64,000 bases of DNA, taken from Apostichopus japonicus (taxonomy: Eukaryota > Echinodermata > Holothuroidea > Aspidochirotida > Stichopodidae). Location: NCBI RefSeq assembly GCF_037975245.1, contig NC_092567.1:12786876-12850875 (forward strand), in the 5' to 3' direction. Below, in pieces: positions 27,405 through 59,639 of this stretch; within the stretch, counting starts at the first letter, position 1; the number at the start of each line of letters is the position of its first letter. The notes beneath the pieces are model-generated. The model was not told the DNA's origin and searched no databases. It saw only the letters and a list, made by a program, of their open reading frames with translations. A program made the position numbers and the translations under genes.

Positions 27405-27545
27405 TTACCATGATGAAATAGCATATGATGGATTGGGCATTGGAGGCTTAAAGGCGACGTGCTGCTGGCCGGCAATCAGGTTCATGTTAACATCATCTTG
27501 GTTGTGAGGTGGTAGAAACGGCCTTGCACTGAATCTAATAGATCC
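27405..27545 (-). CDS. LMNTD1: LMNTD1-like exon 15: terminal coding exon
   Basis: Acceptor CTTCAG|GGATCT. Residues 724-769, then TAA. The end ([15 protein letters not shown]) has no CaaX prenylation motif. The stop overlaps a possible donor (CATG|GTAATG), so an alternative downstream exon cannot be excluded. Confidence 0.7.
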   Translation of the reverse strand, partial: GSIRFSARPFLPPHNQDDVNMNLIAGQQHVAFKPPMPNPSYAISSW

Positions 27546-30500
27546 CTGAAGAAGATAAAATAATCAACTATTAACACTCATGAAATAGAAGGAGAAAATG
27601 AAACACGGATTGTCTGAATAGCAGGATGCTGAATTGTTTGTTTACCATTCACTTGGTAAGCTCTTCCTGGTCTCATTAAACTTCATTTCCAAATAATCAG
27701 TGTACGGAAGCAGCATTACCAACACTGGTTTACATACAACAATATAGCAGCACATTCCTGAATGATTGTACAAGCAAACCAGCAGAACAATGCAATCTAA
27801 ACTTGCCTTAAAAGACCAGTGCCATGTAGTCTAACTAATAATGGTTATGATAAACTGCTCCCCTTCTCTGGCAAAGATGCCCAACCAAACTGCAGCATTC
27901 AAAATAAAAATAGCTTCCCTCACTGGAACAGAGATTTACGGTCTACTGTTGATTGTGAGTCAGTTTAACCTACTACCCCGCTACAAAGTCTCATAAATGA
28001 ACCGGTGGATCACAGAAAATAAATCACACCGAAAGATCAAACAAGGGCCAATTATATGAGAGATTTTTAGGAAGAGTATTCCGTAAACAAGACACACATT
28101 CTACCTAACAATAGAATGTCATCGCAGTTTGTCACCTCTCCAATTGGTGTGCTTACATTAAGATCCTAAAACATAGGTTGGTACTTAAAAATAAGGTAAA
28201 TGATTTTGAAACAACAAGTGTGCACTTCTATGCGGATGTCTCTACATTAGCCTATTTTATACATGAGGGAGAGGGGCTGATATTTTAAGTAACGATAGCA
28301 ATAAAGTAGATTTAGATGCAGTAGGTCCAAGGTACTTTTTAAGAAAAGTCACCCAGGAAAGAACCTGGGCAAGAAAAACGAAGGTTATGCTGAAGTGAAG
28401 ACTTATGTTTTCATGTATAGGTATACAGTATACATGAAATAGCTATACCAACATAATCAAGTCCTTAAACAATAAATATTTTTATTCAAAAATTCAAGTT
28501 GGTGGTCTAAGAGTTGGTGGTCTAAGATTACATTGGCATATGAATTGGCCTTGATGCAAATATTCTGTTTTGAATTATTTGCCCAAATTTCCAACTGTCC
28601 TATTGATACAGATCATAGATTTGAAGTAGCAACATGTTCAGTGTATGGATACAATTGCCATTAATTGAGACTGATATGTACTGTGCATGAAGACACTCAG
28701 GTTGAATTATTCAGCTAATAATAAATGAACATGAATAACTCAACAACAAATATCTCAAGTTTCACTGTACATATCAACCCAGCATGCTTTTGTCTTGTTC
28801 TTGAGAATGAATGTAAACAGTCACAAATCAAATCATTATAATCAGCTGAAACATCATTTGATGATGTGGATTTATTGTTTACTGCATGCAGATAGTACAT
28901 AAAGCACCCAGCACACAGGAATGTGGATGGGCATTTATCTATTGCTGTATACATGTAGTACATAAAGCAACAGCATACAGGGAAGTGGTTTTATATATTA
29001 CTGTACACATGTAGTACATACAGCACCAGCACACAGGGATGTGGATTTATCTACACATGTAGTACATAAAGCACCAGCACACAGGGATGTGGATTTATCT
29101 ATTACTGTTCACATGTAGTACATAAAGCACCAGCACACAGGGATGTGGATTTATCTATAACTGTTCACATGTAGTACATAAAACACCAGCACACAGGGAT
29201 GTGGATTTATCTATTACTGTACACATGTAGTACATAAAGCACCAGCACACAGGGATGTGGATTTATCTATTACTGTTCACATGTAGTACATAAAGCAACA
29301 GCACACAGGGATGTGTATTTATCTATTACTGTACACATGTAGTACATAAAGCACCAGCACATAAGGATTTGGATTAATCTATAACTGTACACATGTAGTA
29401 CATAAAGCACCAGCACACAGGGATGTGTATTTGTCTATTACTGTACACATGTTGTACATAAAGCACCAGCACACAGGGATGTGTATTTGTCTATTACTGT
29501 ACACATTTAGTACATAAAGCACCAGCACACAGGGATGTGTATTTGTCTATTACTGTACACATGTAGTACATAAAGCAACAGCACACAGGGATGTGTATTT
29601 ATCTATTACTGTACACATGTAGTACATAAAGCACCAGCACATAAGGATTTGGATTAATCTATAACTGTACACATGTAGTACATAAAGCAACAGCACACAG
29701 GGATGTGTATTTGTCTATTACTGTACACATGTAGTACATAAAGCACCAGCACACAGGGATGTGGATTTATCTATAACTGTTCACATGTAGTACATAAAGC
29801 ACCAGCACACAGGGATGTGGATTTGTCTATAACTGTTCACATGTAGTACATAAAGCACCAGCACACAGGGATGTGGATTTATCTATTACTGTACACATGT
29901 AGTACATAAAGCACCAGCACACAGGGATGTGGATTTATCTACTACTGTACACATGTAGTAAATAAAGCACCAGCACACAGGGATGTGGATTTATCTATAA
30001 CTGTTCACATGTAGTACATAAAGCACCAGCACACAGGGATGTGGATTTATCTATAACTGTACACATTTAGTACATAAAGCACCAGCACATAGGGATGTGG
30101 ATTTATCTATAACTGTTCACATGTAGTACATAAAGCACCAGAACACAGGGATGTGGATTTATCTATAACTGTACACATGTAGTACATAAAGCACCAGCAT
30201 ACAGGGATGTGGATTTATCTATAACTGTACACATGTAGTACATAAAGCACCAGCACACAGGGATGTGGATTTATCTATAACTGTACACATGTAGTAAATA
30301 AAGCACCAGCACATAGGGATGTGGATTTATCTATAACTGTACACATGTAGTACATAAAGCACCAGCACATAGGGATGTGGATTTATCTATAACTGTACAC
30401 ATTTAGTACATAAAGCGCCAGAACACAGGGATGTGGATTTATCTATTACTGTACACATGTAGTAAATAATGCACCAGCACACAGGGATGTGAATTTATCT

Positions 30501-33500
30501 ATGACTGTACACATGTAGTACATAAAGCACCAGCACACAAGGATGTGGATTTATCTATAACTGTACACATTTAGTACATAAAGCACCAGCACATAGGGAT
30601 GTGGATTTATCTATAACTGTTCACATGTAGTACATAAAGCACCAGCACATAGGGATGTGGATTTATCTATAACTGTACACATTTAGTACATAAAGCGCCA
30701 GAACACAGGGATGTGGATTTATCTATTACTGTACACATGCAGTAAATAATGCACCAGCACACAGGGATGTGAATTTATCTATGACTGTACACATGTAGTA
30801 CATAAAGCACCAGCACACAGGGATGTGGATTTATCTATTACTGTACACATGTAGTAAATAATGCACCAGCACACAGGGATGTGAATTTATCTATGACTGT
30901 ACACATGCAGTACATAAAGCACCAGAACACAGGGATGTGGATTTATCTATAACTGTACACATGTAGTACATAAAGCGCCAGAACACAGGGATGTGGATTT
31001 ATCTATTACTGTACACATGTAGTAAATAATGCACCAGCACACAGGGATGTGAATTTATCTATGACTGTACACATGTAGTACATAAAGCACCAGCACATAG
31101 GGATGTGGATTTATCTATAACTGTACACATTTAGTACATAAAGCGCCAGAACACAGGGATGTGGATTTATCTATTACTGTTCACATGTAGTACATAAAGC
31201 ACCAGCACACAGGGATGTGGATTTATCTATAACTGTTCACATGTAGTACATAAAGCACCAGCACATAGGGATGTGGATTTATCTATAACTGTACACATTT
31301 AGTACATAAAGCGCCAGAACACAGGGATGTGGATTTATCTATTACTGTACACATGTAGTACATAAAGCACCAGCATACAGGGATGTGGATTTATCTATAA
31401 CTGTACACATTTAGTACATAAAGCACCAGCACATAGGGATGTGGATTTATCTATAACTGTTCACATGTAGTACATAAAGCGCCAGAACACAGGGATGTGG
31501 ATTTATCTATAACTGTACACATATAGTACATAAAGCACCAGCATACAGGGATGTGGATTTATCTATAACTGTTCACATGTAGTACATAAAGCACCAGCAC
31601 ACAGGGATGTGGATTTATCTATTACTGTACACATGTAGTACATAAAGCACCAGCACACAGGGATGTGGATTTATCTATAACTGTACACATTTAGTACATA
31701 AAGCACCAGCACACAGGGATGTGGATTTATCTATTACTGTACACATGTAGTACATAAAGCACCAGCACACAGGGATGTGGATTTATCTATAACTGTACAC
31801 ATGTAGTACATAAAGCACCAGCACACAGGGATGTGGATTTTTCTATAACTGTACACATTTAGTACATAAAGCACCAGCACACAGGGATGTGGATTTATCT
31901 ATAACTGTTCACATGTAGTACATAAAGCACCAGCACATAGGGATGTGGATTTATCTATAACTGTTCACATGTAGTACATAAAGCGCCAGAACACAGGGAT
32001 GTGGATTTATCTATTACTGTACACATGTAGTAAATAATGCACCAGCACACAGGGATGTGAATTTATCTATGACTGTACACATATAGTACATAAAACACCA
32101 GCACACAGGGATGTGGATTTATCTATTACTGTACACATGTAGTACATAAAGCGCCAGAACACAGGGATGTGGATTTATCTATTACTGTTCACATGTAGTA
32201 CATAAAGCGCCAGAACACAGGGATGTGGATTTATCTATTACTGTTCACATGTAGTACATAAAGCACCAGCACACAGGGATGTGGATTTATCTATTACTGT
32301 ACACATATAGTACATAAAGCACCAGCACACAGGGATGTGGATTTATCTATAACTGTTCACATGTAGTACATAAAGCACCAGCACACAGGGATGTGGATTT
32401 ATCTTTAACTGTTCACATGTAGTACATAAAGCACCAGCACACAGGGATGTGGATTTATCTATTACTGTTCACATGTAGTACATAAAGCACCAGCACACAG
32501 GGATGTGGACTTATCTATAACTGTTCACATGTAGTACATAAAGCACCAGCACATAGGGATGTGGATTTATCTATAACTGTTCACATGTAGTACATAAAGC
32601 ACCAGCACACAGGGATGTGGATTTATCTATTACTGTTCACATGTAGTACATAAAGCACCAGCACATAGGGATGTGGATTTATCTTTAACTGTTCACATGT
32701 AGTACATAAAGCACCAGCACACAGGGATGTGGATTTATCTATTACTGTTCACATGTAGTACATAAAGCGCCAGAACACAGGGATGTGGATTTATCTATAA
32801 CTGTACACATGTAGTAAATAATGCACCAGCACACAGGGATGTGGATTTATCTATTACTGTTCACATGTAGTACATAAAGCACCAGCACATAGGGATGTGG
32901 ATTTATCTGTAACTGTTCACATGTAGTACATAAAGCACCAGCACACAGGGATGTGGACTTATCTATAACTGTTCACATGTAGTACATAAAGCACCAGCAC
33001 ACTGCATAGGGATGTGGGAAATGAAAAAAAAAGGTACAAGAAAGATATTATAAGCTTACTTTGATTGTCAATGTAATGAAAGTTTTAAAGTGCACAAGTG
33101 ATAAATGGTAATCATATTCATACTGTCATTGAGTTCCCCACAATATAACAAAAGGGAATTGCTGCCTTATGCTCTGGCATACATTATATTAAATTTTGTT
33201 TACACAGAACACATGGTATATTGTTATACAGAGGATTTTAATGACATACTGACCTGTGATGTTGAACTTGATGGTCTAGAAGAAAGCCTCAGTGGTGCAC
33301 TTCCAGTGCGAGTAGCACTAATTCCATAACCAGCATACAGCTCACCTAATAGAGTCAATTAATTCATGAACAACTTGCAATTGTGAAATAATTAATGTTA
33401 CTTCATCATACTGAACTTAATGCAAAATATGACAGTTCTATTGAAGAGACGATCCCATTGTAAGTGTCTTGTCTTGATTAAGTCAGCTATTGGTATTACT

Positions 33501-36500
33501 TAAGTACATTCCAATTCCAAATAATTTGCTAGGAAATGGGTCTGTGTCAACTCAAACAGGTGAAGTTAGATGGCAATTTCCTGTAACACTTTAAGAAACT
33601 AACAACTTGATCCTTGATACGTATAGTACCTCTACTGTTAAAGTGCATTAGGTGTTAAGTAAGCAAACAAATTACATTCAAAACCTGCTATCAAATAGAT
33701 GCAACAACCTTTAAGAAACTAACAACTTGATCCTTGATACATATAGTACCTTTACTGTTAGAGTGTATAAGGTGTAAAGTAAGCAAACAAATTACATCCA
33801 AAACCTGCTATCAAATAGATGCAACAACCTAAAATGTTTTAGGACATTTGACCAGGGTAAAGTATTTATGCTGCAAATGTGATCATCATCTTTGGTACAT
33901 TTAAGACTCTTACCAGGAGCAGCATCAGGACGTGTAATTTGTGAACGGCTTTGCCTGACAAGACTGCTGCCATCATTACCGAGTGTCTTGACTCTGGTTT
34001 CTCCGGCCCCTGGGTGTGTATCATGTTGACTATACTGACCATGAGGATGCTTAGCAGGCGCAAGAGATGGAGGGTCTTGCTTGTCTCTGTCCAACAAAAG
34101 TAGAAATAAAGCAATGTAGTCTTCACAAAATCCTTATACTGCTATGTGAGCAACTTGATCTGACACTAATAATCTGTATTATCCATTGAACATGTATTGA
34201 TGTTACCACACATGACCCAGCGTGTACATAGTACATATGAATTAAATTCAATCCAAACAGGTTACATGTATCACATGATTTAGTATGGTTTCATTATCCA
34301 AAACTTTGAAGTTAATCAAATTACAGTATTGAAATAAATTTGCATACTATATTAACTCTATGTAAATATCAGTTGCTCCAGTCTCCAATGTTGTAAATGA
34401 ACAGTCATTTTGAAAATAGTTGGATATGATTAAATATTTAAGGAATGTGTTGTTGTAGATTGATGCAATCAGATTGGTCTATGACAACTGAAGGTTTGCC
34501 AGCAGGTATCAGCTTCAGTTCTTTGCAACTTTTATGTAGTGTATAGTTAATGACACAGAGAAACCCTTTACTCTTGTTCCATTGTTTTGTGTTAAGACAT
34601 AAATAAATTATTAGATTAACAGTTTACTACAAAGACATGTTATGCAGCTTGAAAGAGAAGAACAATAATTATAGAAATATCTTTTTGTAAAGAGAGAAAA
34701 TGTATCACAAAGGACTTGGTAGCATATGTTACCTCTTCAAAACAGTAACTGGTTTGCCATCTATTTCTACTTCAAATTCAGGATGAAGATTTGTGATTCC
34801 TTCTTCTGACTCCTCCCCCTTTTCCTCCTCAACAGATTTATCATCACTTTCATCATACTTTCTTGCTGTTTTAGAAAATCTGTGAGCAGCAGTGGTCCAT
34901 GCAATGGCCTGAAGAGAACAGAAAGAAACATCTCTCTTGAAGTTGTACCAATTTAACTAACATTAATTCTATTCCAGCAGCACATTCTACTCTATTTACA
35001 GCTGAAAACATTATCACATTATGGAGCAATAATGGCCACCAAGGCAGTTAATGAAGAGACAATACACAAAAAAGATAATTCAAATTCAGAGACTGGCAGG
35101 TGTACGATACAAGCCTTTGTTTGAAATGCAATCCAATCAATTACAAAGTCATCAAGTTTATGATGATAGTTGTCAGTGCAAGGAGGGGTATGCATGATAA
35201 AAAGTACGGTCAAAATACAGAATACTGAGTAATTCACAGATAGATTTAAGCAACCTTTAATATACTCATATAAATATTGAATACACATAAAACTGAAATT
35301 ATACTGAATTACTATCATGTGGACCCAGGATGTATAAAGTTTGCTTTTAACTTGTTCACATCTGTATTGCATTTACATAACATTTCTCAACTTTGTATCT
35401 TTGAAGAACTTGAAAATGAACTGTTTTGAAAGTGTCAACGTTTTGTAGATATCCGTCTTATTTGAGAACTCAATCTGTCTTTGGTAAGAATACTCTCCAT
35501 CTTGATAATGAAACATATGATGAGACTGTACAATGAAATGGTTTGCATCAAGGCAAACTTCATGTTGCCTTCATCTATAGAATTGATGTTTGAAGCTGCA
35601 TACAATCAACTCACATGACCATTGGGCTTGCACAGTATTGTGGTACATTCTGGACCAGTGCCCCACCTATGTTGCTCCTTCCAAAGAAAATCTGTTGGAG
35701 GTTGATGTTTGGCCAGACTTGATGCACTCCAAACCTACAGAGATTAAAACAATAGACATTTTTACCATCACTTCCTACTAATTGCATGATGGTGCATCCT
35801 CATTAGTCAAGGACACAAGATAGCAAAGTGATATAACCTTTATCACCCCTACACTTAGTGTACTGGGATTACATATTGTACCATATTTGGCAAAATTGTT
35901 AGTAAAATTGCTGCCCATCCTCACAACCCTCAGTCTGACATAATGGGGATACCTTAGGGTGGCACAGTCACATGGTGTGGACTTATCATTTATGAAGTTG
36001 AGGACAAACAAGAATGTGTGTGCATATTTGTGTGTATATGTAACCAAAAAGTGTGTCACAAACGCCTAAACTGTCAGGCCGATTGATTGCACACTTGGTG
36101 GGTGTATGCAAGGGTATGGGATGTAGTTCGTTTGTGAATCATGATGTCATAGTGTCAAAGGTCAGAGGTCAAATAGACAAAAAACAGCATTTTGGCCATT
36201 ATGCATGTACGGAAATGACAATATTGCCTTATGCTTCATACACAAGTAGGATATCACAGACTATATGTCTACAGTGTAGTTATTAATGCAAAAGTCTAAA
36301 GGTCATGTGATCAAAGGAGGTCAGAGGTCAAAATTTGTTATATTTGTTCTAAAAAGGGTTTGCAAGCTACTCTTCAGTCATAAAGCTTCAAACTTGGTTT
36401 GTATGTGCCTGGGCATGGGTTGTAGCAACTGCGTGTCTAATGACGTCATAGGACCAAAGGTCCGAGGTCAAAACAGCAAACGAGGTGTTTGCTGTTGGAT

Positions 36501-39500
36501 ACAGTTTTACGCCAACATGTGGACACTGTCGGTAATTTTGCCAGGGTTTGTTTTATGGACTTTAGCTCCGCCTTTAACACTCTTAGCAATTCGAACTTAC
36601 TTCGTACGTTAGATGCTCATGTAAACAACAACATCATTTCATTGCTGTATCACTTTTTATTCAACAGAACTCAATATGTATACTGTGATGGGATCAGCAG
36701 TGAAGATATTGTCACTAATACTGGTGTCCCACAAGGGTGTTGTTTATCACCATTGCTGTTTGGCGTTTATACTGATTCCTTGTCCACACTTTATGAAAAT
36801 GTTTACATTATAAAATATGCAGATGATACAGCTTTTGTTGGTTTGTGTAATGATAAATATCCACAGAGCATTGTCAATTACCACACAGCTATTGGGAGAT
36901 TGTAGCGTGGTGTGAAACCAATTACCTTTTTATAAACAGCTCCAAAACCAAGGAATTAATTGTTGATTTCCGTTCAGTTCAGATGCATGATCCAGTTATA
37001 ATTAATGATAGTGAGGTTGAGGTTGTGTCAGATTTTAAATATTTAGGACTCATTTTTAATCATACTCTCACTTGGGACTCTCATATAGGCTCAATACTTG
37101 CGAAAATAAAGCAGCGGCTATATTGTATTTATAGGTTGGGAGGATTTGGTCTAGAATATGAGAAACAGCTTTGGCTCTTTCGTTCCATGGTGCTTTCACT
37201 CATGGTCTATTGTGCTCCTGTGTGGCTCTCTTCCTGTTTCAAGACTCAACTCAATTTGATTAACAGACATTTCAGAAAGTATTATTCTGTAGATGATCAG
37301 TACATTGAAGATATTTTACTTCATTATGTAAGAGGGATTTTGACTGATCCTGACCATCCTCTTCATAAGTTTTACACCATTCCACGTAGGTTGTATACCC
37401 TACCTCGTATGCGTACTGAACGCTTTAGACATTCTTTTTTACCGAGGAGTATAAAGCTTTTGAATTGTCACATAACTAGATGATATTTTTATCATATTTT
37501 TGTATATATATTTTGCATAATTTTAAGCTGCGGATTCCATTTTATTATGTCTTCATTTTATGATTGATATCAATAAATTTTACTTTACTTTACTTTACTA
37601 AAAGTCAAATAACCCAAAAAACAGCATTCTGGCCATTACAGATATACCCAAAAAAATAATATGGCCGAAACCTTGACACAAGTATGATACCATAGACCAC
37701 ACATCTTCAATGCATTAATTAATGTCACATGATCAAAGGTGGAAAAGATTAAAACTTGTGCACGTACCAAAGTGACCTTAACTGTGTCGTTAACTTATTT
37801 CAAGTTTCATGTTAAGGTTTTCTGGTAGCTAAAGTTGATTGCTTAACAAAATTGCTAGAAATTTAAATTTAGTAAAAATATAGCTGAACGTGTTGTACCA
37901 TGAATAAAGTATGCGATCTGCAACTCCATGGATTGCCTACTTGTTTATGTAACAAAAGCAACCTTTACTCTAGTAAAAATTAAAAGATTAGACTTTCACT
38001 TTTGATCTCAAAGGTTGCAATAACACAAAGTCATGAAATGAAAGGTCAGGTTAAAGGAACAAATAGCCTGTTTGAGTTTGAAATGAGAGATGTTAAATGG
38101 CAGTAGCAATAATTTCAACAATATAAAGCTTTTCTGAGTTGAAATTTTGTAGCACAGCAAGCAAGACTATGTTGCTTCTATTCAGGATTTGGTGTTGACA
38201 GCCAGTACACAATCGTGTATACAGGATAAACCTTTGCTGGTTCATTACCCGCTTCTTAATACCTTTAAGGCAGTTGCTTGAACCAAACCTATGAATTCAA
38301 ATTGACAAAGATATTCCTAAGAACTCACAGTCATAACAGCACCAGCTCTAAATCTTGTTCTCGGCTCAAATCGATAGACAGCTACAGGATGGCCGCCAAT
38401 ATTCTGCTGAATCATGAAACCTCCAACATCCACATCTTTACCGGGTGAAGAGTTGAAGAGACGAACAAATTTCCCATCTTCATTAATTTCTAATATCTTA
38501 AGGTCTCCAGTGGTGCTGAAAGAAGGTGTTTAATTTTAGAGTGATTAAGAGTGACTTAAGTAAATTGTACAGTAGTCCTTCAAATTATAAGCAGCATGGA
38601 TGAATTTCAACTTTAATAATCACGTACCTGTAAGAAAACATCAACTCTATATAAGTTATTTCTTCTCACTTAATATCATGTCACTACTTTGAGTCACAAA
38701 GTTAAGTCCATAATACCCTAAGAGTCCCTTGGAAAACAACAAAGAAACTGCTAAGAATTCTCAGTAATCTCTCATGACACAGATACTGTGACAATATCTT
38801 AGTATGAAAGAATTATAAAATGTAAATCAAGATATTTGAGCTCAATACAAATTCAGTCACATTACAACAGCAATGCTTACCTTGATGTGGCTGTTGTGAA
38901 GTCATGTGACATTGGTGGAGTTCGCGTAGCTGGAGCAGAGTTTGATTTTGAATAAACCTTTGTTTTAATTGTACCAGACCTGTTCATATCTTGGAAGATA
39001 GAGTCAAAATAATCCCTCCCTTGTCCCATGGTGGCAGGAACAGATGCTGGTCTGGATCCTACAAGATAGACAGTAATAACAAACCCTTTCAAGTGGATTC
39101 TACAAGATAGACAGTAATAACAAACCCTTTCAAGTGGATCCTACAAGATAGACAGTAATAACAAACCCTTTCAAGTGGATCCTACAAGATAGACAGTAAT
39201 AACAAACCCTTTCAAGTGGATCCTACAAGATAGACAGTAATAACAAACCCTTTCAGGTGGATCCTACAAGATAGACAGTAATAACAAACCCTTTCAAGTG
39301 AATTCTACAAGATAGACAGTAATAACAAACCCTGTCAAGTGGATCCTACAAGATAGACAGTAATAACAAACCCTTTCAATTGAATTCTACAAGATAGACA
39401 GTAATAACAAACCCTTTCAAGTGGATCCTACAAGATAGACAGTAATAACAAACCCTTTCAATTGGATCCTACAAGATAGACAGTAATAACAAACCCTTTC

Positions 39501-42500
39501 AAGTGGATCCTACAAGATAGACAGTAATAACAAACCCTTTCAATTGAATTCTACAAGATAGACAGTCATAACAAACCCTTTCAATTGAATCCTACAAGAT
39601 AGACAGTAATAACAAACCCTTTCAAGTGGATCCTACAAGATAGACAGTAATAACAAACCCTTTCAATTGAATCCTACAAGATAGACAGTAATAACAAACC
39701 CTTTCAAGTGGATCCTACAAGAAAGACAGTAATAACAAACCCTTTCAAGTGGATCCTACAAGAAAGACAGTAATAACAAACCCTTTCAAGTGGATCCTAC
39801 AAGATAGACAGTAATAACAAACCCTTTCAAGTGGATCCTACAAGATAGACAGTAATAACAAACCCTTTCCAGTGAATTCTACAAGATAGACAGAAAATAA
39901 CAAACCCTTTCAATTGAATTCTACAAGATAGACAGTAATAACAAACCCTTTCAAGTGGATCCTACAAGATAGACAGTAATAACAAACCCTTTCAAGTGAA
40001 TTCTACAAGATAGACAGTAATAACAAACCCTTTCAAGTGAATTCTACAAGATAGACAGAAAATAACAAACCCTTTCAATTGAATTCTACAAGATAGACAG
40101 AAAATAACAAACCCTTTCAATTGAATCCTACAAGATAGACAGTAATAACAATCCCTTTCAAGTGGATCCTACAAGATAGACAGTCATAACAAACCCTTTC
40201 AAGTGGATTCTACAAGATAGACAGTAATAACAAACCCTTTCAAGTGGATCCTACAAGATAGACAGTAATAACAAACCCTTTCAATTGAATTCTACAAGAT
40301 AGACAGTAATAACAAACCCTTTCAAGTGGATCCTACAAGATAGACAGTAATAACAAACCCTTTCAAGTGAATTCTACAAGTGAGACAGTAATAACAAACC
40401 CTTTCAAGTGAATTCTACAAGATAGACAGTAATAACAAACCCTTTCAAGTGAATTCTACAAGATAGACAGTAATAACAAACCCTGTCAAGTGGATCCTAC
40501 AAGATAGACAGTAATAACAAACCCTTTCAATTGAATTCTACAAGATAGACAGTAATAACAAACCCTTTCAAGTGAATTCTACAAGATAGACAGTAATAAC
40601 AAACCCTGTCAAGTGGATCCTACAAGATAGACAGTAATAACAAACCCTTTCAATTGAATTCTACAAGATAGACAGTAATAACAAACCCTTTCAAGTGGAT
40701 CCTACAAGATAGACAGTAATAACAAACCCTTTCAATTGGATCCTACAAGATAGACAGTAATAACAAACCCTTTCAAGTGGATCCTACAAGATAGACAGTA
40801 ATAACAAACCCTTTCAATTGAATTCTACAAGATAGGCAGTAATAACAAACCCTTGCAATCGAATCCTACAAGATAGACAGTAATAACAAACCCTTTCAAG
40901 TGGATCCTACAAGATAGACAGTAATAACAAACCCTTTCAATTGAATTCTACAAGATAGACAGTAATAACAAACCCTTTCAATTGAATCCTACAAGATAGA
41001 CAGTAATAACAAACCCTTTCAAGTGGATCCTACAAGATAGACAGTAATAACAAACCCTTTCAATTGAATCCTACAAGATAGACAGTAATAACAAACCCTT
41101 TCAAGTGGATCCTACAAGAAAGACAGTAATAACAAACCCTTTCAAGTGGATCCTACAAGATAGACAGTAATAACAAACCCTTTCAATTGAATTCTACAAG
41201 ATAGACAGTAATAACAAACCCTTTCAATTGAATCCTACAAGATAGACAGTAATAACAAACCCTTTCAAGTGGATCCTACAAGATAGACAGTAATAACAAA
41301 CCCTTTCAATTGAATTCTACAAGATAGACAGTAATAACAAACCCTTTCAATTGAATCCTACAAGATAGACAGTAATAACAAACCCTTTCAAGTGGATCCT
41401 ACAAGATAGACAGTAATAACAAACCCTTTCAATTGAATCCTACAAGATAGACAGTAATAACAAACCCTTTCAAGTGGATCCTACAAGAAAGACAGTAATA
41501 ACAAACCCTTTCAAGTGGATCCTACAAGAAAGACAGTAATAACAAACCCTTTCAAGTGGATCCTACAAGATAGACAGTAATAACAAACCCTTTCAAGTGG
41601 ATCCTACAAGATAGTAATAACAAACCCTTTCAAGTGAATTCTACAAGATAGACAGAAAATAACAAACCCTTTCAATTGAATTCTACAAGATAGACAGTAA
41701 TAACAAACCCTTTCAAGTGGATCCTACAAGATAGACAGTAATAACAAACCCTTTCAAGTGAATTCTACAAGATAGACAGTAATAACAAACCCTTTCAAGT
41801 GAATTCTACAAGATAGACAGAAAATAACAAACCCTTTCAATTGAATTCTACAAGATAGACAGAAAATAACAAACCCTTTCAATTGAATTCTACAAGATAG
41901 ACAGTGATAACAATCCCTTTCAAGTGGATCCTACAAGATAGACAGTCATAACAAACCCTTTCAAGTGGATTCTACAAGATAGACAGTAATAACAAACCCT
42001 TTCAAGTGGATCCTACAAGATAGACAGTAATAACAAACCCGTTCAATTGAATTCTACAAGATAGACAGTAATAACAAACCCTTTCAAGTGGATCCTACAA
42101 GATAGACAGTAATAACAAACCCTTTCAAGTGAATTCTACAAGTGAGACAGTAATAACAAACCCTTTCAAGTGAATTCTACAAGATAGACAGTAATAACAA
42201 ACCTTTTCAAGTAGATTCTACAAGATGGACAGTAATAACAAACCCTTTCAATTGAATTCAACAACTAAACATCATATTTATGTTTTCTACTCAGAAATAA
42301 ATGTCACCTGATAGCATGTCCTTGGCTCGGTTTGTAGATGCAAAGCAAGTTTTTTTTTTTAACAATACTTGATGAGAATTGCACCATACTGTTATACTTC
42401 ATCAAACCTTCCTCTGCATGGTGTACAGTTGATAGCTTTAGTTTGGTAGAATCATTATGATAGAATTATAAATATCTTACTTGTCAGAGGATTTAATACA

Positions 42501-45500
42501 TCTCTGTCTCTACCAGCCCTTGAGTCCACTGTTCTCGGTCTGCCTTCAGATCCAGGGAATGAAGCCAGTGGATATTTAGTTGTCGCCATGTGTCTAAACC
42601 TTTCAAGTAAGCAAACAAAATACCCATTGAATCTAGACCAAACATGCACAATCAACTTAATGACCTAGTCAACAAATGCTTAAATATTTACCCATGAAGG
42701 TATTGTGGTGAAGTTGTTTCTTTTTTAGAATTGTTTTATTTTTCTTCTGTTTTTGATAAGCTTGATTGTTTGAAAACTTACTTTTTCTCTTCTTCATCCA
42801 GCATGTTTTTCAAGCTCTCTAGCTCTGCCCTGATTGGCTGCTTAGTGCCAGTTGCTTGAGATATTTCATGCATCTTTTGAATCAAGCTATCTTGTAATAG
42901 TCTTTGATTTTCTTCCAAGGCCCTAATATGAACTGTGTTCTTCTCCCTGTCATTTCTTAAAGTGTCCATCAGGTTTGCAGTCTGTTTTTCAGCTTGATCC
43001 AACTGGAACAAAAGCAATAGTTGTTATGGTCAATACGGTGAAATTTTATTTTCATTACATTTATAGAACAGACTCAATACAAATCACTTTCTTCCTTGGA
43101 GGATGCAACAGTAACAGTAGAATGCTATTCAGGCAATATATACCTGACCAAGAAGAAACAGGAATGTACTAACTGCAACAACAAATAAGAGTGAAAGGAT
43201 CAATAAACGCTGCAGGAATTTCGCCCTCTGTAAAATAACTAGTCAAAACTACCTTTCCCCAAATTTCCAGGAATTTTCTAATTATTTTTTCACACCTACT
43301 GTGTTGGCAGTCACGTTGTCACAAGGGCGCTTTCAAAAATGATGTCAGCGAGCAACATCGTAAGTTAAACAATTCCCTCTCTTGATATGAATTGTACTCA
43401 ACAAAAAGAGCGTACTGCAATACAGTATTCTCTTAGCAGAAAAGGCTAGGGTTTATTTCTCCTTTAAAAATCATGCTCAGATGTTGATGATACACGCAGT
43501 GTCTCTCTGGGAGAGTTTCTCCAAGTCTTTAGTTACTGACTGAACTAAACTACTGACCAGTATATTTACTTGAAAGTAATGAGCTTCAAGCAGAGCATTA
43601 AAAGCAATGACTGTTGACTCCTGTATGTACAATCACACTTGGAATGCTTTCTGTTGAGATACTATTAAATGTCTACTCACATGCCCACTGACATATAACA
43701 TGACACAAGAACAAAGAAAGCAGTGGGTCTCATTGAAAAATACCCCAATTGTGGTTAAGGCTTGGTGAGAATTCAGTTTGGGAAGAGCACAATTTGCATG
43801 AGAAATAGTTCCCTTTGGTATAAATATTTCTGTTTTCCTTTTCCCTATTATTTGATTTCACCTTTCAAAATTTAAGAGAGACAACTCTGGCATACACAAC
43901 AATAGGACAAAGAAGAACATCAATTACTTGTACAAAAAGAAACAGCTTCTAACGCAAGTATTTATTCTAAGGTCCAGGAAGGAACATGTCCAGAAACAAC
44001 CATCACTGGAGTAGGAAGCTATCAAAACATGGAGGAGGCGGGCAAGAAAACTGTTCTGGTTTTGTGTCTTCATTATTTCCATTTAAATTTTAGTTTTGAA
44101 GATGTAATGAAGGTCCAGATATAACCTTTGAAAATCCAACCATTATATCTTCAAATCTCAACTTTCTCTTTCATAGTTTTGACTAGAATTATGGTTTGAT
44201 TAATTCAATGAATGCCACTCCAGACAGGTTCATTGAATGTGTGTGAAGTGCACATCTGCATCAAAGCAGGTCAGATGTACTGTGTATGGTACATGACTTT
44301 AAATATTTGAGTGAAAGCAAAATAACACATACTTGTAAAGTTGTGATCCTCTGACTAAAAATGTTGCAACCAACCCCTGTGGCCCCTAATTAGATGAACT
44401 GCCAGAACTGCATATTGTCATAATCATAGCAGGTCCTGCATACTAGTGTAGCGGTGCTTACTACCGTTGTAGCGGTGCATACTACCGTTGAAGCGGTGCT
44501 TTCTACCGTTGTAGCAATGCGTACTACCGTTGTAGCGGTGCATACTACCGTTGTAACAATGCGAACTACCGTTGTTGCGGTGCATACTACTGTTGAAGCG
44601 GTGCTTTCTACCGTTGTAGCGGTATGTACTACTGTTGCAGCGGTATGTACTACCGTTGTAGTGGTGCGTACTAACGTTGTAGTGGTGCGTACTACCGTTG
44701 TAGCGATGCGTACCACCCATGTAGCGGTGCGTACTACCGTTGTTGCGGTGCATACTACCGTTGTAGAGGTGTGTACTACTGTTGTAGCGGTGCGTAATAC
44801 TGTTGGAGCAATGCGTACTACTGTTGTAGCAGTGCGTACTACTGTTGTAGCGGTGCTCACTACCGTTTTAGAGGTACGCACTACCGTTGTTGCGGTGCGT
44901 AATACCGTTGTAGCAATGGGTACTACCGTTGTTGAGGTGCGTACTACCATTGTAGCGGTGCGTACTACTGTTGTAGCGGTGCTCACTACCGTTGTAGTGG
45001 TGCGTACTACCGTTATTGCGGTGCGTACTACCATTGTAGCAGTGCGTACTACTGTTGTAACGGTGCTCACTTCCTTTGAAGCGGTGCGTACTACCGTTGT
45101 AGCAATGCGTTTTTAAAGAATTATTGTAACCTACAAAATTGAGAAATATAGCACCATTGTGCATCTAGGCCTTCCTTAACTTCAAAAAAATCTCAATGGG
45201 GAGGGGGAACCCCCTCCCTTTAGAGCCCTCCCCAGGACGGGGATCACTATGTAAGTAACATATCAATGAATAATGGGCCGGTCTAGGTGAAAATGCCCAG
45301 GCTGGTTTTAAGACCCAGTCGGTCCCTGAAAGGTGGTACATACTTTGAAAGGTTATATAAAAGGATATACAATTCAATCAATCGATCAATCAATCAATCA
45401 GAGAGAATAAGATGGAGGAAGTGTCAAGGAAAATTGGGAGTCTGTGTAAAGGCTGAATTTCACATCTTTCCCATTTATAAGCAAGTACAAGGTATTATGA

Positions 45501-48500
45501 TATGTGACATTACTATTGTAATCAAACATTGACCTACCCTGCTTTTAAGAGAATAGGTTAAATCTTCCTATTGGAAAGAATCTTTTGTGGACTCACCTTA
45601 CACTTAGTACTCGATAGCTCTTCAATCAATCTGTCAATTTCCCTCTCAAGACTTTTATTTTCATTCCCCAGCTTTTGAATATTCTCACTGTCTTTGCCCA
45701 TCTGGTGCTTTAATTCTTGAAGCTTTGGAAAAATTCAAACATATGAGAATGGACGCTTTCAACATTGATCTTCAAAGTAAGATATGTAGATTAACATGTA
45801 GTTTAACCATATCCGTAACTATATCTGTAACTAAGATTACCTGTACCTTAATCCTTTTAACTATCCATGGGAAAGAAAACGGTTATAAGAATAGTCCAGA
45901 GGTTGTCATGTCAATGGTAAATAACCTTCTTTCTTTCAACCGTTTAACTAAGATAATATGATTACCAACTCTCATACCGTCCAAGATATAATCTGTAAAA
46001 GGACAGCTATCGATTTCAATAATGGTCACAAACACAAGTGTATACTTTCTTCATACTGTCTGTAAAGTGAATGCAAATTTAAGCTAAATGTTTAGCAACA
46101 CTTTGTGCACAACAAACCTCTCATCTGTTATTCTTGCAGACTACATAGTGTTATCTATCTAATGAGACTCTGTATCTGCCAAGGAATGTTAAGTTATTGT
46201 GCTATATATTATCCTTTATTACTCTTACTTTTCTCTATACACCTAAGTTATCTCTTTCTGAGATTCATTTTACTATGCCCTTTCTTTGCAACAGTTCTTG
46301 GCCTCTCCTTAGCAACTGCATACAATTGAGTGGCAGTTTAATCCATATATTATTGCCATTTGATTACATATATTTACATTCTTATGGTAAGTGGATTCTG
46401 TCTCATCTTTAAAGTTTTGTAGGTCTCTTTCTGCTGCTTGTCTCATATTTTCCAGCGCCTCGTGAAGGGTGTTGTCTGGTCGGGCTAACTCCCTGACTTT
46501 AGTCTCTAACTGAAGAATCCTGTTAGCATCATCATCAAGGCGTAGCTGCTGCTCCTTGGATTCCTGCAAGAAATGTAAATATGAATATCTGGATGGTCAA
46601 ATCATGAAGGAGTGAAATAAATGCAACCACTGTATATTACAGAACCCCAACATCAATATTACATTGGATATACAACCAACAAAGATACAGTATACATCAT
46701 TAAGAATAAGATGCTAGAATGCTTCAACAACTTTCACTTAAGTTAATATTTAGCTTTAAAATAGAAAAGCTAAATTAATGAAAATGACAGTTTATGCAAT
46801 ACTTAGACATTTGAATTTAACTTGGTACAAAACCCATACAGTCAATAACGATGGTAAACTTTAAAAAAGCTGAAATACAATAATGAAAAAGAAGAAGAGA
46901 TCCCTTGTTTCTCAATCCACACTAGATACAGACAAGTATTAATACTCTGCTAATGAAATGAAATGCTGATACTCTGGGCTCATAACACTACAAAAGAGAT
47001 TGAAATAATATACATGTAGAGGAAGCAGAACCATACATGAGTGTCTTACCTTTCAAGATTCCTACATCCACCTCTTTATGATAATCAACATAATGTGACC
47101 AAGACTTAAAAAATTATGTAAGGTCAGATTTATTGTTTTGATAGACAGACAGAAATCATAGAGCAGTTTAACATGAACTTCAGCAGAAGCTTAAACAGCT
47201 ACTAAAATGTAGCTCCTTACATTAATAAATCTAGCAGAATTGCATAGAAAAATATGTCTTCATTTATCTAATTAAAGGGCAACATAGAGCATAAATAACA
47301 CTTTACCTCTTGCTGTAAGCGGCTGTCAAATTCCTGCTTTCTCTCCAAGGCTCTGTGCTTGTCCTCTGCCTGCTGCCTGCCAACTATTTCCCTGTCTAAC
47401 CTATAGGAAACAGAGAAAATAATTGAATTCATCACTAACAGGGAATCCTCAGTAGAGATCATTGTAAGCCAATGTTAGGTCCCAATGGAGTAAGATTACA
47501 GGGAATCCTCAGTAGAGATCATTGTATTCCAATGTTAGGTCCCAATGGAGGAAGATTACAGGGAATCCTCAGTAGAGATCATTGTATTCCAATGTTAGGT
47601 CCCAATGGAGGAAGATTACAGGGAATCCTCAGTAGAGATCATTGTAAGCCAATGTTAGGTCCCAATGGAGTAAGATAACAGGGAATCCTCAGTAGAGATC
47701 ATTGTATTCCAATGTTAGGTCCCAATGGAGTAAGATAACATCTTTCCTTATACACTAGTAGATTAATGTTTCAAACAAAGAGGTTGCAGGAAGATTTAAC
47801 TCATTGGTGTTAAATTAACATTCCAATAAACTACAATCATGAAAACCCTTATTTTCAGTAATTATACTGAACTGTGAACAACCATATTTCCAAGTGTTGA
47901 ATAGGTCAAAGACACAATCCTTTCAAACAAGTCTTTTCATTTTGATATGGAAGGCAGTTGTTTTACAGTACTAAACAGCCATATATACATGTGAGAAAAG
48001 ACACAAAGGCTGTTTAATACAATTCAGGACACATGGTTATCCAACCTTTGGGTTTGGCTATTTTAAATATTTTTGTTGTTGATTGATTGATATGAAGATA
48101 AAATGGTGAGTCTACTTTACTGATAACAGATCAGACAAATCACTTAACGAGTGAGTTCACATAGCCAATAAATAAAATCCAAGCTATACCACAGTGACAT
48201 ACACAAGATCAAAAGTGAAGCAGGTATTGGCTTAAGTGTGTGCAGGGTTTAGTGTAAACCAAATGTATCCTAGGCACTCCTAAGTTTCCAGAACTTCCAA
48301 ACATGGAGAAAGAAATAACCTCAGATATTCTTATTTTCTCCCCAAAAAGCAAGCAACTTGGTAATTTATCCCCAAAGATAATCATTTAGATATTCATATC
48401 CAAACTTGAGCTTGTACACAATGCACTTTTCAAATTTAACAGGAAAATGGCCACATAGTAGGCAGAGCTTGCCTTGGAGAACATGTTACTACTAAACAGC

Positions 48501-51500
48501 ATTCGATTTAGTGCCTTTTTTTGCTTAGCCAAAAATGCTATACATAATTGGTTTTGTATAGCAATTGACCAAATCTTGATGACACACGTACCCACATAGC
48601 TAGCTGTCCAGAGATCTGGTCCGAATAAAATGCAAATATGAATGAATCATATTGCAGCTTGCAGTTTGTGTTCACTAATTTGCAATTACTGAATACTGTG
48701 GTAAATATACTGCATCACATATTTACGATATACATTTTGCGATGCGATACCTGCTAAAATCAAACACTGCTACTAAATATCTTTGAGTTTGATATTATAA
48801 GATACTTTGATAAGAAAGAGAAGTAACCACATCTAAAAGTTACCAAACATGGATACACTCACCTAGTATAATTAGTTTAGTGTATGTTTCATGTTGAGAA
48901 TGTTTATCAGTCCGCTTATTGGAAATTAAGAAACATTGGTCTAATGAGGAAGTACCTTCATGTATTTGTTACTTCAAAATTGGATTGCTTGAATCTCTTT
49001 TATTTGGACTTTCTGAGTTCCAAATTCAGAAACTTCAAAAGATTAAAAACACTGCAGCACAAATAGTCACTGAAGAAGATGTCATATGTGAGGACACGCA
49101 GGTAATAAATAGGCAGGAGAGAGTGCTAATTTCTACCACCGCTTGTTCCAGTGGCTGAGGGGTATATTACTTCTTCTCCCACATAGCATGTTCGAGATTA
49201 TTTTAAATGACTACATAAACAACAAACAAAAAGGACGGTGCAGCACCTTCAGGTGGTTTCCTCAATTACATCTTAAAAACAGCATCTTCGGCAATAAACT
49301 CTACATTTGAAACAGAGCGTTAAAATGTCTCGTGTACGTATAAATTTTAATGTATCAAGGTACAGCAACGAACACCAAAAGGGACAAATGAACAACCAAC
49401 ACATGGCTACCTGTGCGATGCACTACACATATCACAAAAGATCTTTGCTGGCTCCCTATTGACTTTCGAGTAAAGTTTTAAATACTCCTACTTGCATTTC
49501 ATGCTCATGATTTACAACAGCCTGTGTATTGCCCTAACCTTCTATCATCTTACCTTCCTGTATGCACATTACCTTGGACAAGCAAATCATACCTCTGTGT
49601 ACCTAAACCTCGTGTAGAGGCTTATGGATTCAGAGGTTTGACTTACTCTGCCGCAAGTCTTTGGAATCAGTTACCAGACAATCTTCCAACTTGTTCTCAT
49701 GTATCTACTTTTAAGAGTTACTGAAGACTCATTATTTCTGTTGTGCATTTCAGTGTTGATGCTTTTCACTTTGTGAAGTGCCAAGGGCAGTTACTCGTTT
49801 CCTAGATGGGCACTGTATAAATCTACATTATTATTATTATTATAATAACATTTTTAATATCTTAAAGTATTTGCACTGACTTTCTCTGCATGTCCTCATT
49901 TTGCCGAGTGAGTGCACTAACGTCATCCTCTAGATCGTGTGCTCTCTTCATAAGTTCCCCACACTTTGATTTCAGTTGCTGACAGTCCATGTCCTTCTGA
50001 GCAGATAGTTTGTGTGCATCATCAACCTCCGATTGTAAAGCTCTGTTTCGCTGGGTCTCTACTGCTAATCTAAACCAAGAAAGGTGATATCAATTTGATT
50101 CTTTCAGGTGAGAAATTAAATCAAATTCTGCAATGACAAAACTGAGCCAACTACAACTTCTTAACCTAAAACGAAAACATTTAGTGGTTCCGATGCCCAA
50201 ACATATTCATACTGTGGTAAGCCATACATGTTAATATTCATGAACTTTTGCACACCAATATGAAGACAATTATCTGTTCACTAATGGAGCAATTTTAAAA
50301 CAGAAAGGTATCAGGAATCAGTTATCATGTTGACAAAGTCTATTTAGTGATATCGCATAAAAAAAAAGACATGATTGAATATTAATGAGGTCAAATTTTA
50401 TGATCTCATAAGCATGTATCTATATACTTACAACGTATTATCCAAGTTCATGTATACATTTAAATACACATACTATTTCTGAGGTATCTTATTAAGAATT
50501 TTATGTTCACTGTTCAATATTCATGACATGTACAAAAAAAAACATGATTGATAGTATGAATGTAGTGTGACAAACCTAATAAGCCAATAATGAAAACCTT
50601 GGAACATTTGGTTCTTGTCTTGTATTTGAAAGCCAATTTTTGCAATTAGATGAATATTGTTGACATAAAGTTGGAGACGTTATGAAATGTGCTTCTTATG
50701 TACCAACATCACTATACCAGTATGAACCAAATTGTACGTTAATCCCCGCCAATTTATTAATATTAATGGCATTAACCAAAAGAATCTCCATCCCTTGTCC
50801 ACTAATCTCCTTACATCTATCTCTTTGTGTTCACCATGCTCATTAACTTGTATGTATTTTGTGCGTGTTTTGTCCCTCCTGTTACTGTTACTTGTCATTT
50901 ATCCTCTGAAGAAGATCCTGCTAGGATCGAAACGTTAGGCCAACTTACTTTTACACAAGAAATAAACTAAATCAGATATACAGTTGCAGAGATATTGACA
51001 TTTTAAAACTTTTATGGTTAGTCCTACCCACTCATCAATATTCATGAGATGGGAACCAAACAAAAGGGCACTTCTACTCATTGTAGGGCATCTGCCTATC
51101 AAGTATAACATGATTTAACTTGTGTTTGTTGGGACATGGTGTTTACAAGAAGTTTTTGATGATTTCCCATTAAGCCCTCCATGAATATTAATGACGTAAC
51201 ATTGTTGTTGCAAAGAACATTTAGGCCTACATGAACTAAATTGGACATACGGTTGAAAGAGATATTGACATTTTAGGATTTTTATGTAAAGCCTGACCCA
51301 TTAATTAATATTCATGACATGGGGACCAAACACAATAGGGCACATCTACACATCATGGGGCAACTTCCTATCAAGTATGATATTGATTCAACTTGTAGTT
51401 GTTGAGATATCGTGTTTACAAGCTAGCCATGACATATACACACATACACGCCAGCACGATTGCAAAGGTTACTGAGCCTTCCACATTGTAACCAAACTGA

Positions 51501-57706: not shown

Positions 57707-59639
57707 GGAGTAATTATAGAATACAGGGCCACTCGATGATACTATCTGAGCATCCGGATTCGCGGATGCTCAGTCTCACCCCAGTACGTATGTGAGTAAA
57801 AAATGTCAAAGTCCCAGTTCTTTCTTTTTGAGTGGATGCGCGGATGCGTGGATGCGGAGTCAAAAATTTCCTAAGTCTTTTGCTGGTACTTCTGTGGTGG
57901 AATTTTAGAGGGCGACATACGTGTACGGACATGTACAGACACACCGCGCATCCGCGCATCCGGATGCTGGGAAGAGTTAATGAATGGCCCTGTATTCTAT
58001 AATTTCCTAAGTCTTTTGCTGGTACTTCTGTGGTGGAATTTTAGAGGGCGTCACACATGTACGGATGCCTTTTAAGAACGACACACTATTAATGTGGAAT
58101 ATCTTCGTACATTCGGAACTTTCAGTATTGGAAATACGTGATGGTATATGTCGAAACTTTTTCGAAAATTATTTAAGTCCATTCCTAGTACTCCCGGGGT
58201 GGATGCGCGGATGCGCGGATGCGGAGTCAAAATGAAATACGTGATAAAATGTGTGAGTAAAAAATGTCAAAGTCCCAGTTCTTTCTTTTTGAGTGGATGC
58301 GCGGATGCGTGGATGCGGAGTCAAAAATTTCCTAAGTCTTTTGCTGGTACTTCTGTGGTGGAATTTTAGAGGGCGTCACACATGTACGGATGCCTTTTAA
58401 GAACGACACACTATTAATGTGGAATATCTTCGTACATTCGGAACTTTCAGTATTGGAAATACGTGATGGTATATGTCGAAACTTTTTCGAAAATTATTTA
58501 AGTCCATTCCTAGTACTCCCGGGGTGGATGCGCGGATGCGCGGATGCGGAGTCAAAATGAAATACGTGATAAAATGAAATACGTGATGGAAATTAGAGGG
58601 AGTCAAAATGAAATACGTGATGGTATATGGGGAAACTTTCGAAAATTATTTAAGTCCATTCCTAGTACTCCCGGGTGGATGCGCGGATGCGGAGTCAAAA
58701 TGAAATACGTGATGGCATTTTAGAGGGCGACATACGTGTACGGACATGTACAGACACACCGCGCATCCGCGCATCCGGATGCTGGGAAGAGTTAATGAAT
58801 GGCCCTGTATTCTATAATTTCCTAAGTCTTTTGCTGGTACTTCTGTGGTGGAATTTTAGAGGGCGTCACACATGTACGGATGCCTTTTAAGAACGACACA
58901 CTATTAATGTGGAATATCTTCGTACATTCGGAACTTTCAGTATTGGAAATACGTGATGGTATATGTCGAAACTTTTTCGAAAATTATTTAAGTCCATTCC
59001 TAGTACTCCCGGGGTGGATGCGCGGATGCGCGGATGCGGAGTCAAAATGAAATACGTGATAAAATGTGTGAGTAAAAAATGTCAAAGTCCCAGTTCTTTC
59101 TTTTTGAGTGGATGCGCGGATGCGTGGATGCGGAGTCAAAAATTTCCTAAGTCTTTTGCTGGTACTTCTGTGGTGGAATTTTAGAGGGCGTCACACATGT
59201 ACGGATGCCTTTTAAGAACGACACACTATTAATGTGGAATATCTTCGTACATTCGGAACTTTCAGTATTGGAAATACGTGATGGTATATGTCGAAACTTT
59301 TTCGAAAATTATTTAAGTCCATTCCTAGTACTCCCGGGGTGGATGCGCGGATGCGCGGATGCGGAGTCAAAATGAAATACGTGATAAAATGAAATACGTG
59401 ATGGAAATTAGAGGGAGTCAAAATGAAATACGTGATGGTATATGGGGAAACTTTCGAAAATTATTTAAGTCCATTCCTAGTACTCCCGGGTGGATGCGCG
59501 GATGCGGAGTCAAAATGAAATACGTGATGGCATTTTAGAGGGCGACATACGTGTACGGACATGTACAGACACACCGCGCATCCGCGCATCCGGATGCTGG
59601 GAAGAGTTAATGAATGGCCCTGTATTCTATAATTGTACC
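57707..59639. mobile_element. TIR element with internal 815-bp tandem duplication
   Basis: Termini ggagtaattatagaatacag and its near-complement ctgtattctataattgtacc bound the element. aactcctt flanks both sides (57699-57706, 59640-59647). Two copies of an 815-bp unit run head to tail (about 58001-58815 and 58816-59630) after a shorter related block. They share ggatgcgcggatgcg motifs and appear essentially identical. The open frames inside are duplicated artefacts. A related sequence at 59870-60095 has one aactcctt and no insertion. Confidence 0.88.

Follow-up and report, generated by a model that had tools for sequence, protein, structure and literature searches.

Intron 8 of a lamin-tail gene in the sea cucumber Apostichopus japonicus consists largely of near-copies of its own 3' splice site. 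The gene, which is LMNTD1-like and lies on the minus strand, was analysed within a window of 64,000 nucleotides (nt) of contig NC_092567.1 (RefSeq assembly GCF_037975245.1, positions 12,786,876 to 12,850,875); coordinates below are those of the window unless the contig is named. About 93% of the intron is a 41-bp minisatellite of 78 units, 77 of which end in a decoy acceptor and the last in the genuine acceptor of exon 9. We consider it probable that this array is a mirage, a byproduct of tandem duplication that is tolerated rather than employed, and that the last acceptor is chosen by exon definition. Mirages are known from amphioxus, where they are described, in the available parts of two reports, as tandem duplications of intron-exon borders that resemble minisatellites and in many cases contain splice signals (PMC3087553, PMC3902484).

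The coding part of the gene (27405..52890, minus strand) comprises 15 exons and encodes 771 amino acids. Our 15-exon model with GT/AG borders was the sole one obtained when borders were sought within 20 bases of the protein matches; it agrees letter for letter with the annotated 771-residue A. japonicus protein, and the coding-exon numbers, genuine acceptor and intron limits proposed in the initial annotation are thereby upheld. The minus-strand exon translation is identical at 532 of 532 residues to the entry annotated as 'lamin-A-like isoform X2 [Apostichopus japonicus]', and the closest relative from another species, Holothuria leucospilota (70% identity), is named lamin tail domain-containing protein 1, as are other relatives. 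The protein has a Pfam LTD match (E 3.7e-15; 56.7 bits, cut-off 34.3) and a partial Filament match that scores 31.1 bits on the 532-residue part, below the cut-off of 40; a Filament domain is precomputed for the full-length annotated protein. Exon 8 (42481..42599, minus strand, 119 nt) ends in the donor CAA/gtaagat, the slash marking the splice junction, and exon 9 (38881..39058, minus strand, 178 nt), which lies directly before the lamin tail domain, follows the genuine acceptor TATCTTGTAG/GATCCAGACC, as placed by the gene model and the Holothuria alignment. The annotated protein uses this exon 8/exon 9 junction.

Intron 8 (39059..42480, minus strand) measures 3,422 bp, and its first 223 bases (42258-42480) lie outside the array. 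Tandem Repeats Finder reported the minisatellite as 41 bp x 78.0 copies with 94% matches over 39053-42251. Splitting it into units (39059..42257, minus strand) yielded 78 TTGTAG cores, spaced 41 bp apart in 70 of 77 gaps, 42 bp in six and 37 bp in one, with unit lengths of 41 (71 units), 42 (six) and 37 bases (one), in keeping with the earlier description of some 78 acceptor copies filling the intron. The repeat register is 35 intron bases plus six exon bases, the last unit being the genuine exon 9 acceptor. Exon 9 itself begins with GATCCA (39053..39058, minus strand), and the same six bases follow 36 of the 77 decoys, AATTCA follows 28 and close variants follow 13, which agrees with the proposal that the array grew from the intron-exon border and includes the first six exon bases. 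The statement that every unit carries TATCTTGTAG and then GATCC or AATTC was right for most of the array but too sweeping: TATCTTGTAG is present in 70 of the 78 units, and the next five bases, GATCC after 36 decoys and AATTC after 28, are different ones after the other 13 (GATTC 9, AATCC 3, AATCT 1). The array is cut by BamHI at 36 sites and by EcoRI at 28, which would assist genotyping. The intron does, as had been claimed, present dozens of near-identical 3' sites ahead of the genuine one, since 37 of 77 decoys are the same as the genuine site over positions -20..+3 and no more than one base separates 64 of 77 from it. In the consensus unit there are a polypyrimidine stretch, an AG and branch-like TnAy motifs. 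Of 35 comparable pairs lying 43 units apart, 19 are equal, against 13% expected, and we read this internal periodicity as the mark of a block duplication of ~1.8 kb. No Rfam match reached the gathering threshold within the window.

With regard to the origin of the array, exon 9 appears to be the source of the repeat and not its product, with a start that looks ancestral, because in a comparison made at the protein level the junction residues align gap-free with those of Holothuria leucospilota (LNPLTRSRPASVP versus LNPLRSSRPSSVP) and R419, whose codon starts at the sixth base of exon 9, is invariant across all 14 sequences aligned. The same alignment speaks against the reverse course of events, in which a pre-existing intronic satellite reached the exon and replaced the old acceptor, leaving an exon start derived from the repeat. 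This would accord with the abundance of arrays in the gene, where five of more than 200 bp make up 33% of 27405-52890, but a search of the organism's own genome with 241 bases of the array found matches, in counts that are lower bounds, only at the two copies of the same border described below, and we think such an origin quite improbable. Among the five arrays in the introns, the 41-bp array alone touches a splice border. When five arrays were placed at random inside the introns, exact abutment on an acceptor occurred in 0.3% of 200,000 trials, a figure to be taken as a guide only, as exons naturally stop arrays and the case was chosen by eye. Under the reading that we prefer, a tandem duplication of the intron 8/exon 9 border (35 intron and six exon bases) would have founded the minisatellite, which may then have expanded within the intron through slippage or, we infer, unequal exchange. 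A tandem-duplication origin is favoured because the units are homologous to the acceptor, because the array contains the internal 43-unit repeat and because two copies of the gene carry 78 and 40 units.

A complete second copy of the gene is found on the same contig at a distance of 3.2 Mb (9604870-9625115). It retains all 15 exons with GT/AG borders, and 769 of the 771 residues of its product are those of copy 1; between the coding sequences there are 16 differences in 2,316 bases, affecting 14 codons synonymously and two nonsynonymously, and so small a number of nonsynonymous changes would fit a working gene. Its intron 8 is 1,861 bases long and contains 40 units of 41 bp, the array ending at the same border. 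There are 22 unit types in each copy, four of them common to both (34 of 78 and 17 of 40 units), but the longest run of common types is two, and the type CAATTG, found in 26 of 78 units in copy 1, occurs in one of 40 in copy 2. The terminal acceptor unit is identical between the copies and the first two units differ at two bases and one base, respectively; the units adjoining the terminal one differ. To judge from these comparisons, the array ends escape homogenisation and the interiors are rebuilt. Since the second copy has the same border array with a different number and different types of unit, the array is evidently real, older than the split of the copies and subject to fast turnover inside since then. 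That its unit number or structure is an artefact of assembly is therefore scarcely credible. The internal 43-unit repeat could in principle reflect misassembly, but the array is found in two copies that differ in length and unit types, and the HiFi reads, with a mean of 14.7 kb according to the available part of the report on the published assembly, which we take to be the same one (PMC10344927), are longer than the array.

The difference of 78 versus 40 units may be one between alleles or between paralogues, as the second copy is either an allele that the assembly has kept separate or the product of a large true duplication. When the genome was searched at the protein level, 30 matches fell in the two copies and a single weak one outside them. 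The contig carries two versions of a block of at least 100 kb, at ~9.56-9.66 Mb and 12.77-12.87 Mb. The versions match over the whole 100 kb fetched, mostly in the same order but with some pieces moved or inverted; of the 37 matching pieces that were kept, 28 show 94-99% identity, and the lowest value is 83.5%. The extent of the duplicated block was sampled at a few points only: the piece from 12.60 Mb had a partner at 9.38 Mb, the piece from 14.2 Mb had no partner at the expected place, and a 4-kb piece from 13.1 Mb had no match in 15 kb near 9.89 Mb, where drift could have displaced the partner.

Many of the decoys are comparable in strength with the site that they precede. Scored with a matrix built from the 13 other acceptors of the gene, a small set whose leave-one-out scores range from -0.6 to 13.5, the genuine acceptor reaches 9.05 and is equalled or exceeded by 42 of 77 decoys (range 4.18-11.48), as against 4 of 984 other intronic AGs. 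By its sequence, each unit resembles a 3' splice module that may be self-contained. As acceptors the units appear complete, and therefore strength alone cannot single out the genuine site. Joining exon 8 to a decoy is predicted to bring a stop, at the fourth codon for 75 of the 77 decoys and at the fourteenth for the other two. All 77 joins would thus be nonsense, as the initial annotation had foreseen, although its rule that any decoy meets a TGA within four codons fails for those two. Of the 39 decoys in copy 2, one lacks the AG and the other 38 lead to stops, 37 of them at the fourth codon and one at the fourteenth.

These features would accord with the array being a splicing burden or a copy-number-tuned dampener, the decoy-joined and degraded share of transcripts rising with unit number and setting the protein level. 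Stops follow all 77 decoys and the 38 AG-bearing decoys of copy 2, many decoys match the genuine site in matrix strength, array length differs twofold between the copies, and uniform choice of acceptor would give correct splicing in 1/78 of cases. However, amphioxus mirages are reported, in the available parts of the accounts, not to disturb splicing (PMC3087553, PMC3902484), the decoy cores are under no clear constraint, and both copies, at 78 and 40 units, keep an intact and little-changed coding sequence. We consider this explanation unlikely, and a dampener is not needed to explain the array. A rheostat, in which more upstream acceptor copies give more unproductive splicing and unit number serves as a heritable dial on the lamin-tail protein, seems to us improbable.

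Whether the decoys themselves are maintained was assessed from the variable positions within the unit. With both copies pooled (111 of 118 units, all of 41 bases, the seven of other lengths being dropped), 10 of 20 positions in the splice core are variable compared with 14 of 21 in the rest of the unit (p = 0.35), and in copy 1 alone (70 units of 41 bases plus one first-unit change read by eye) the figures are 5 of 20 and 12 of 21 (p = 0.058). A value of p = 0.003 for conservation of the splice core was discarded because the boundary had been picked after looking at the data. Selection on the splice core was rejected on these results, neither of which indicates significant protection, and the unit sequences give no clear sign of selection on the decoys. 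It is accordingly very improbable that the array is a selected regulatory switch, with decoys kept for use in some tissue or stage to silence the gene by unproductive splicing: the AG is indeed kept by all 77 decoys of copy 1 and by 38 of the 39 in copy 2, but homogenisation accounts for this retention. Protein searches for truncated, mis-spliced products gave one distant match only (E up to 1e-20; 7,990 candidates sharing most words scored) and, in a second search, no match; they are weakly informative, as close fragments may be clustered under a full-length entry.

Where exons are short and introns long, it is the exon that serves as the unit of recognition, and the gene fits this layout, with internal exons of 92-221 nt and introns of 182-5,708 nt, 12 of 14 longer than 500 nt. 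The genuine site would most likely be picked through pairing with the exon 9 donor, as the acceptor nearest to it and the one followed by real exon sequence. Any leakage would be expected to go to the nearest decoys, the first three of which would give exons of 219, 260 and 301 nt. An occasional transcript joined to a decoy would meet its stop with six coding exons still downstream and would be expected to be degraded, and it is for this reason that we see the array as tolerated, not employed. Three other fates for the decoys were considered and rejected. Decoy micro-exons would need donors, and the array has no credible ones, its best scoring 3.3, whereas the 14 true donors score 6.8-11.5. 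Recursive splicing is not supported, as GA or AA follows each of the 77 decoys and no donor is regenerated. Hiding of the decoys by RNA folding was dismissed because the genuine site is not clearly separated in predicted local accessibility, which exceeds that of 77% of decoys for the tract and 86% for the AG.

Several points weigh against choice of the last acceptor by exon definition. The exon 8/exon 9 junction rests on the annotated protein and on conservation; the predicted accessibility of the genuine site is above that of most decoys but does not set it apart; the 219-nt exon made by the first decoy still falls inside the exon size range of the gene; and the decoys are transcribed first, so that under a first-come rule most transcripts would be expected to be nonsense. 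The intron consequently stages a natural contest between first-come selection and exon definition, with 77 upstream acceptors in copy 1 and 39 in copy 2. Correct splicing is predicted in ~1/78 of cases under uniform choice (~1/40 in copy 2), almost never under first-come selection and nearly always under exon definition, and the array in this way offers a natural test of how one splice site is chosen among many equals.

At NAGNAG and other tandem acceptors, two competing sites lie a few bases apart at one exon; the sea cucumber array likewise sets competing acceptors at one exon, but it does so with dozens of full modules. A human gene, reportedly 6-16/IFI6, provides a further comparison. Its interferon-induced minisatellite has multiple splice donor sites (Turri 1995, as cited in the available part of PMC3618361) and is similar in its many splice-site copies, although these are donors and those of the sea cucumber array are acceptors. 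Duplicated splice signals also feature in intron gain through AG/GT proto-splice sites (Rogers 1989, as cited in the available part of PMC3087553), whereas the present case enlarges an existing intron with units that have no credible donor. An intronic 27-bp minisatellite of variable repeat number has been described from abalone; the available part of the report does not place it at a splice border (PMC6905558).

The closest parallel is with the amphioxus mirages, described, again in the available parts of the reports, from Adh3 and the globin genes BflGb6 and BflGb9 (PMC3087553, PMC3902484), with PGBD5 and TnC (troponin C) added in PMC3902484. BflGb6 has 6 and 3 units of 150-160 bp, the BflGb9 unit is 157 bp and those of Adh3 are 10-72 bp; unit number varies between haplotypes, and the array ends escape homogenisation. 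The A. japonicus array is similarly of minisatellite size, has a unit that spans the border, runs into the genuine border and has ends that appear to escape homogenisation. It differs in belonging to an echinoderm and not a cephalochordate, in its 41-bp unit and its 78 and 40 units, and in having only six exon bases per unit. No echinoderm mirage was recognised among the open-licence papers that our searches listed, as judged from titles and the beginnings of abstracts. The sea cucumber array is an extreme case of this known kind and extends border minisatellites from cephalochordates to an echinoderm.

Some other repeats of the gene also vary between the copies. Intron 14 has a 56-bp array with 73 units in copy 1 and 30 in copy 2. 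The 21-bp array is of equal length, 31.6 units, in the two copies, and a 60-bp array (47438-47740) and a 120-bp repeat (33589-33830) of copy 1 have no counterpart among the arrays reported for copy 2. The 60-bp x 5 array (region 47400-47740) stops 38 bp upstream of exon 4, short of the acceptor, and is thus near a border but not a mirage. A stretch of ~1.1 kb in intron 10 of copy 1 (36474-37599), whose overlapping open frames resemble, by eye, a non-LTR (long terminal repeat) reverse transcriptase, is missing from copy 2 and appears to have been either inserted or lost after the copies split. Elsewhere in the window, at 58011-59372, the same short translated stretches recur at spacings of 325 and 490 bases (815 together), which we interpret as a tandem structure with a period longer than the 500 bp to which the repeat finder is limited.

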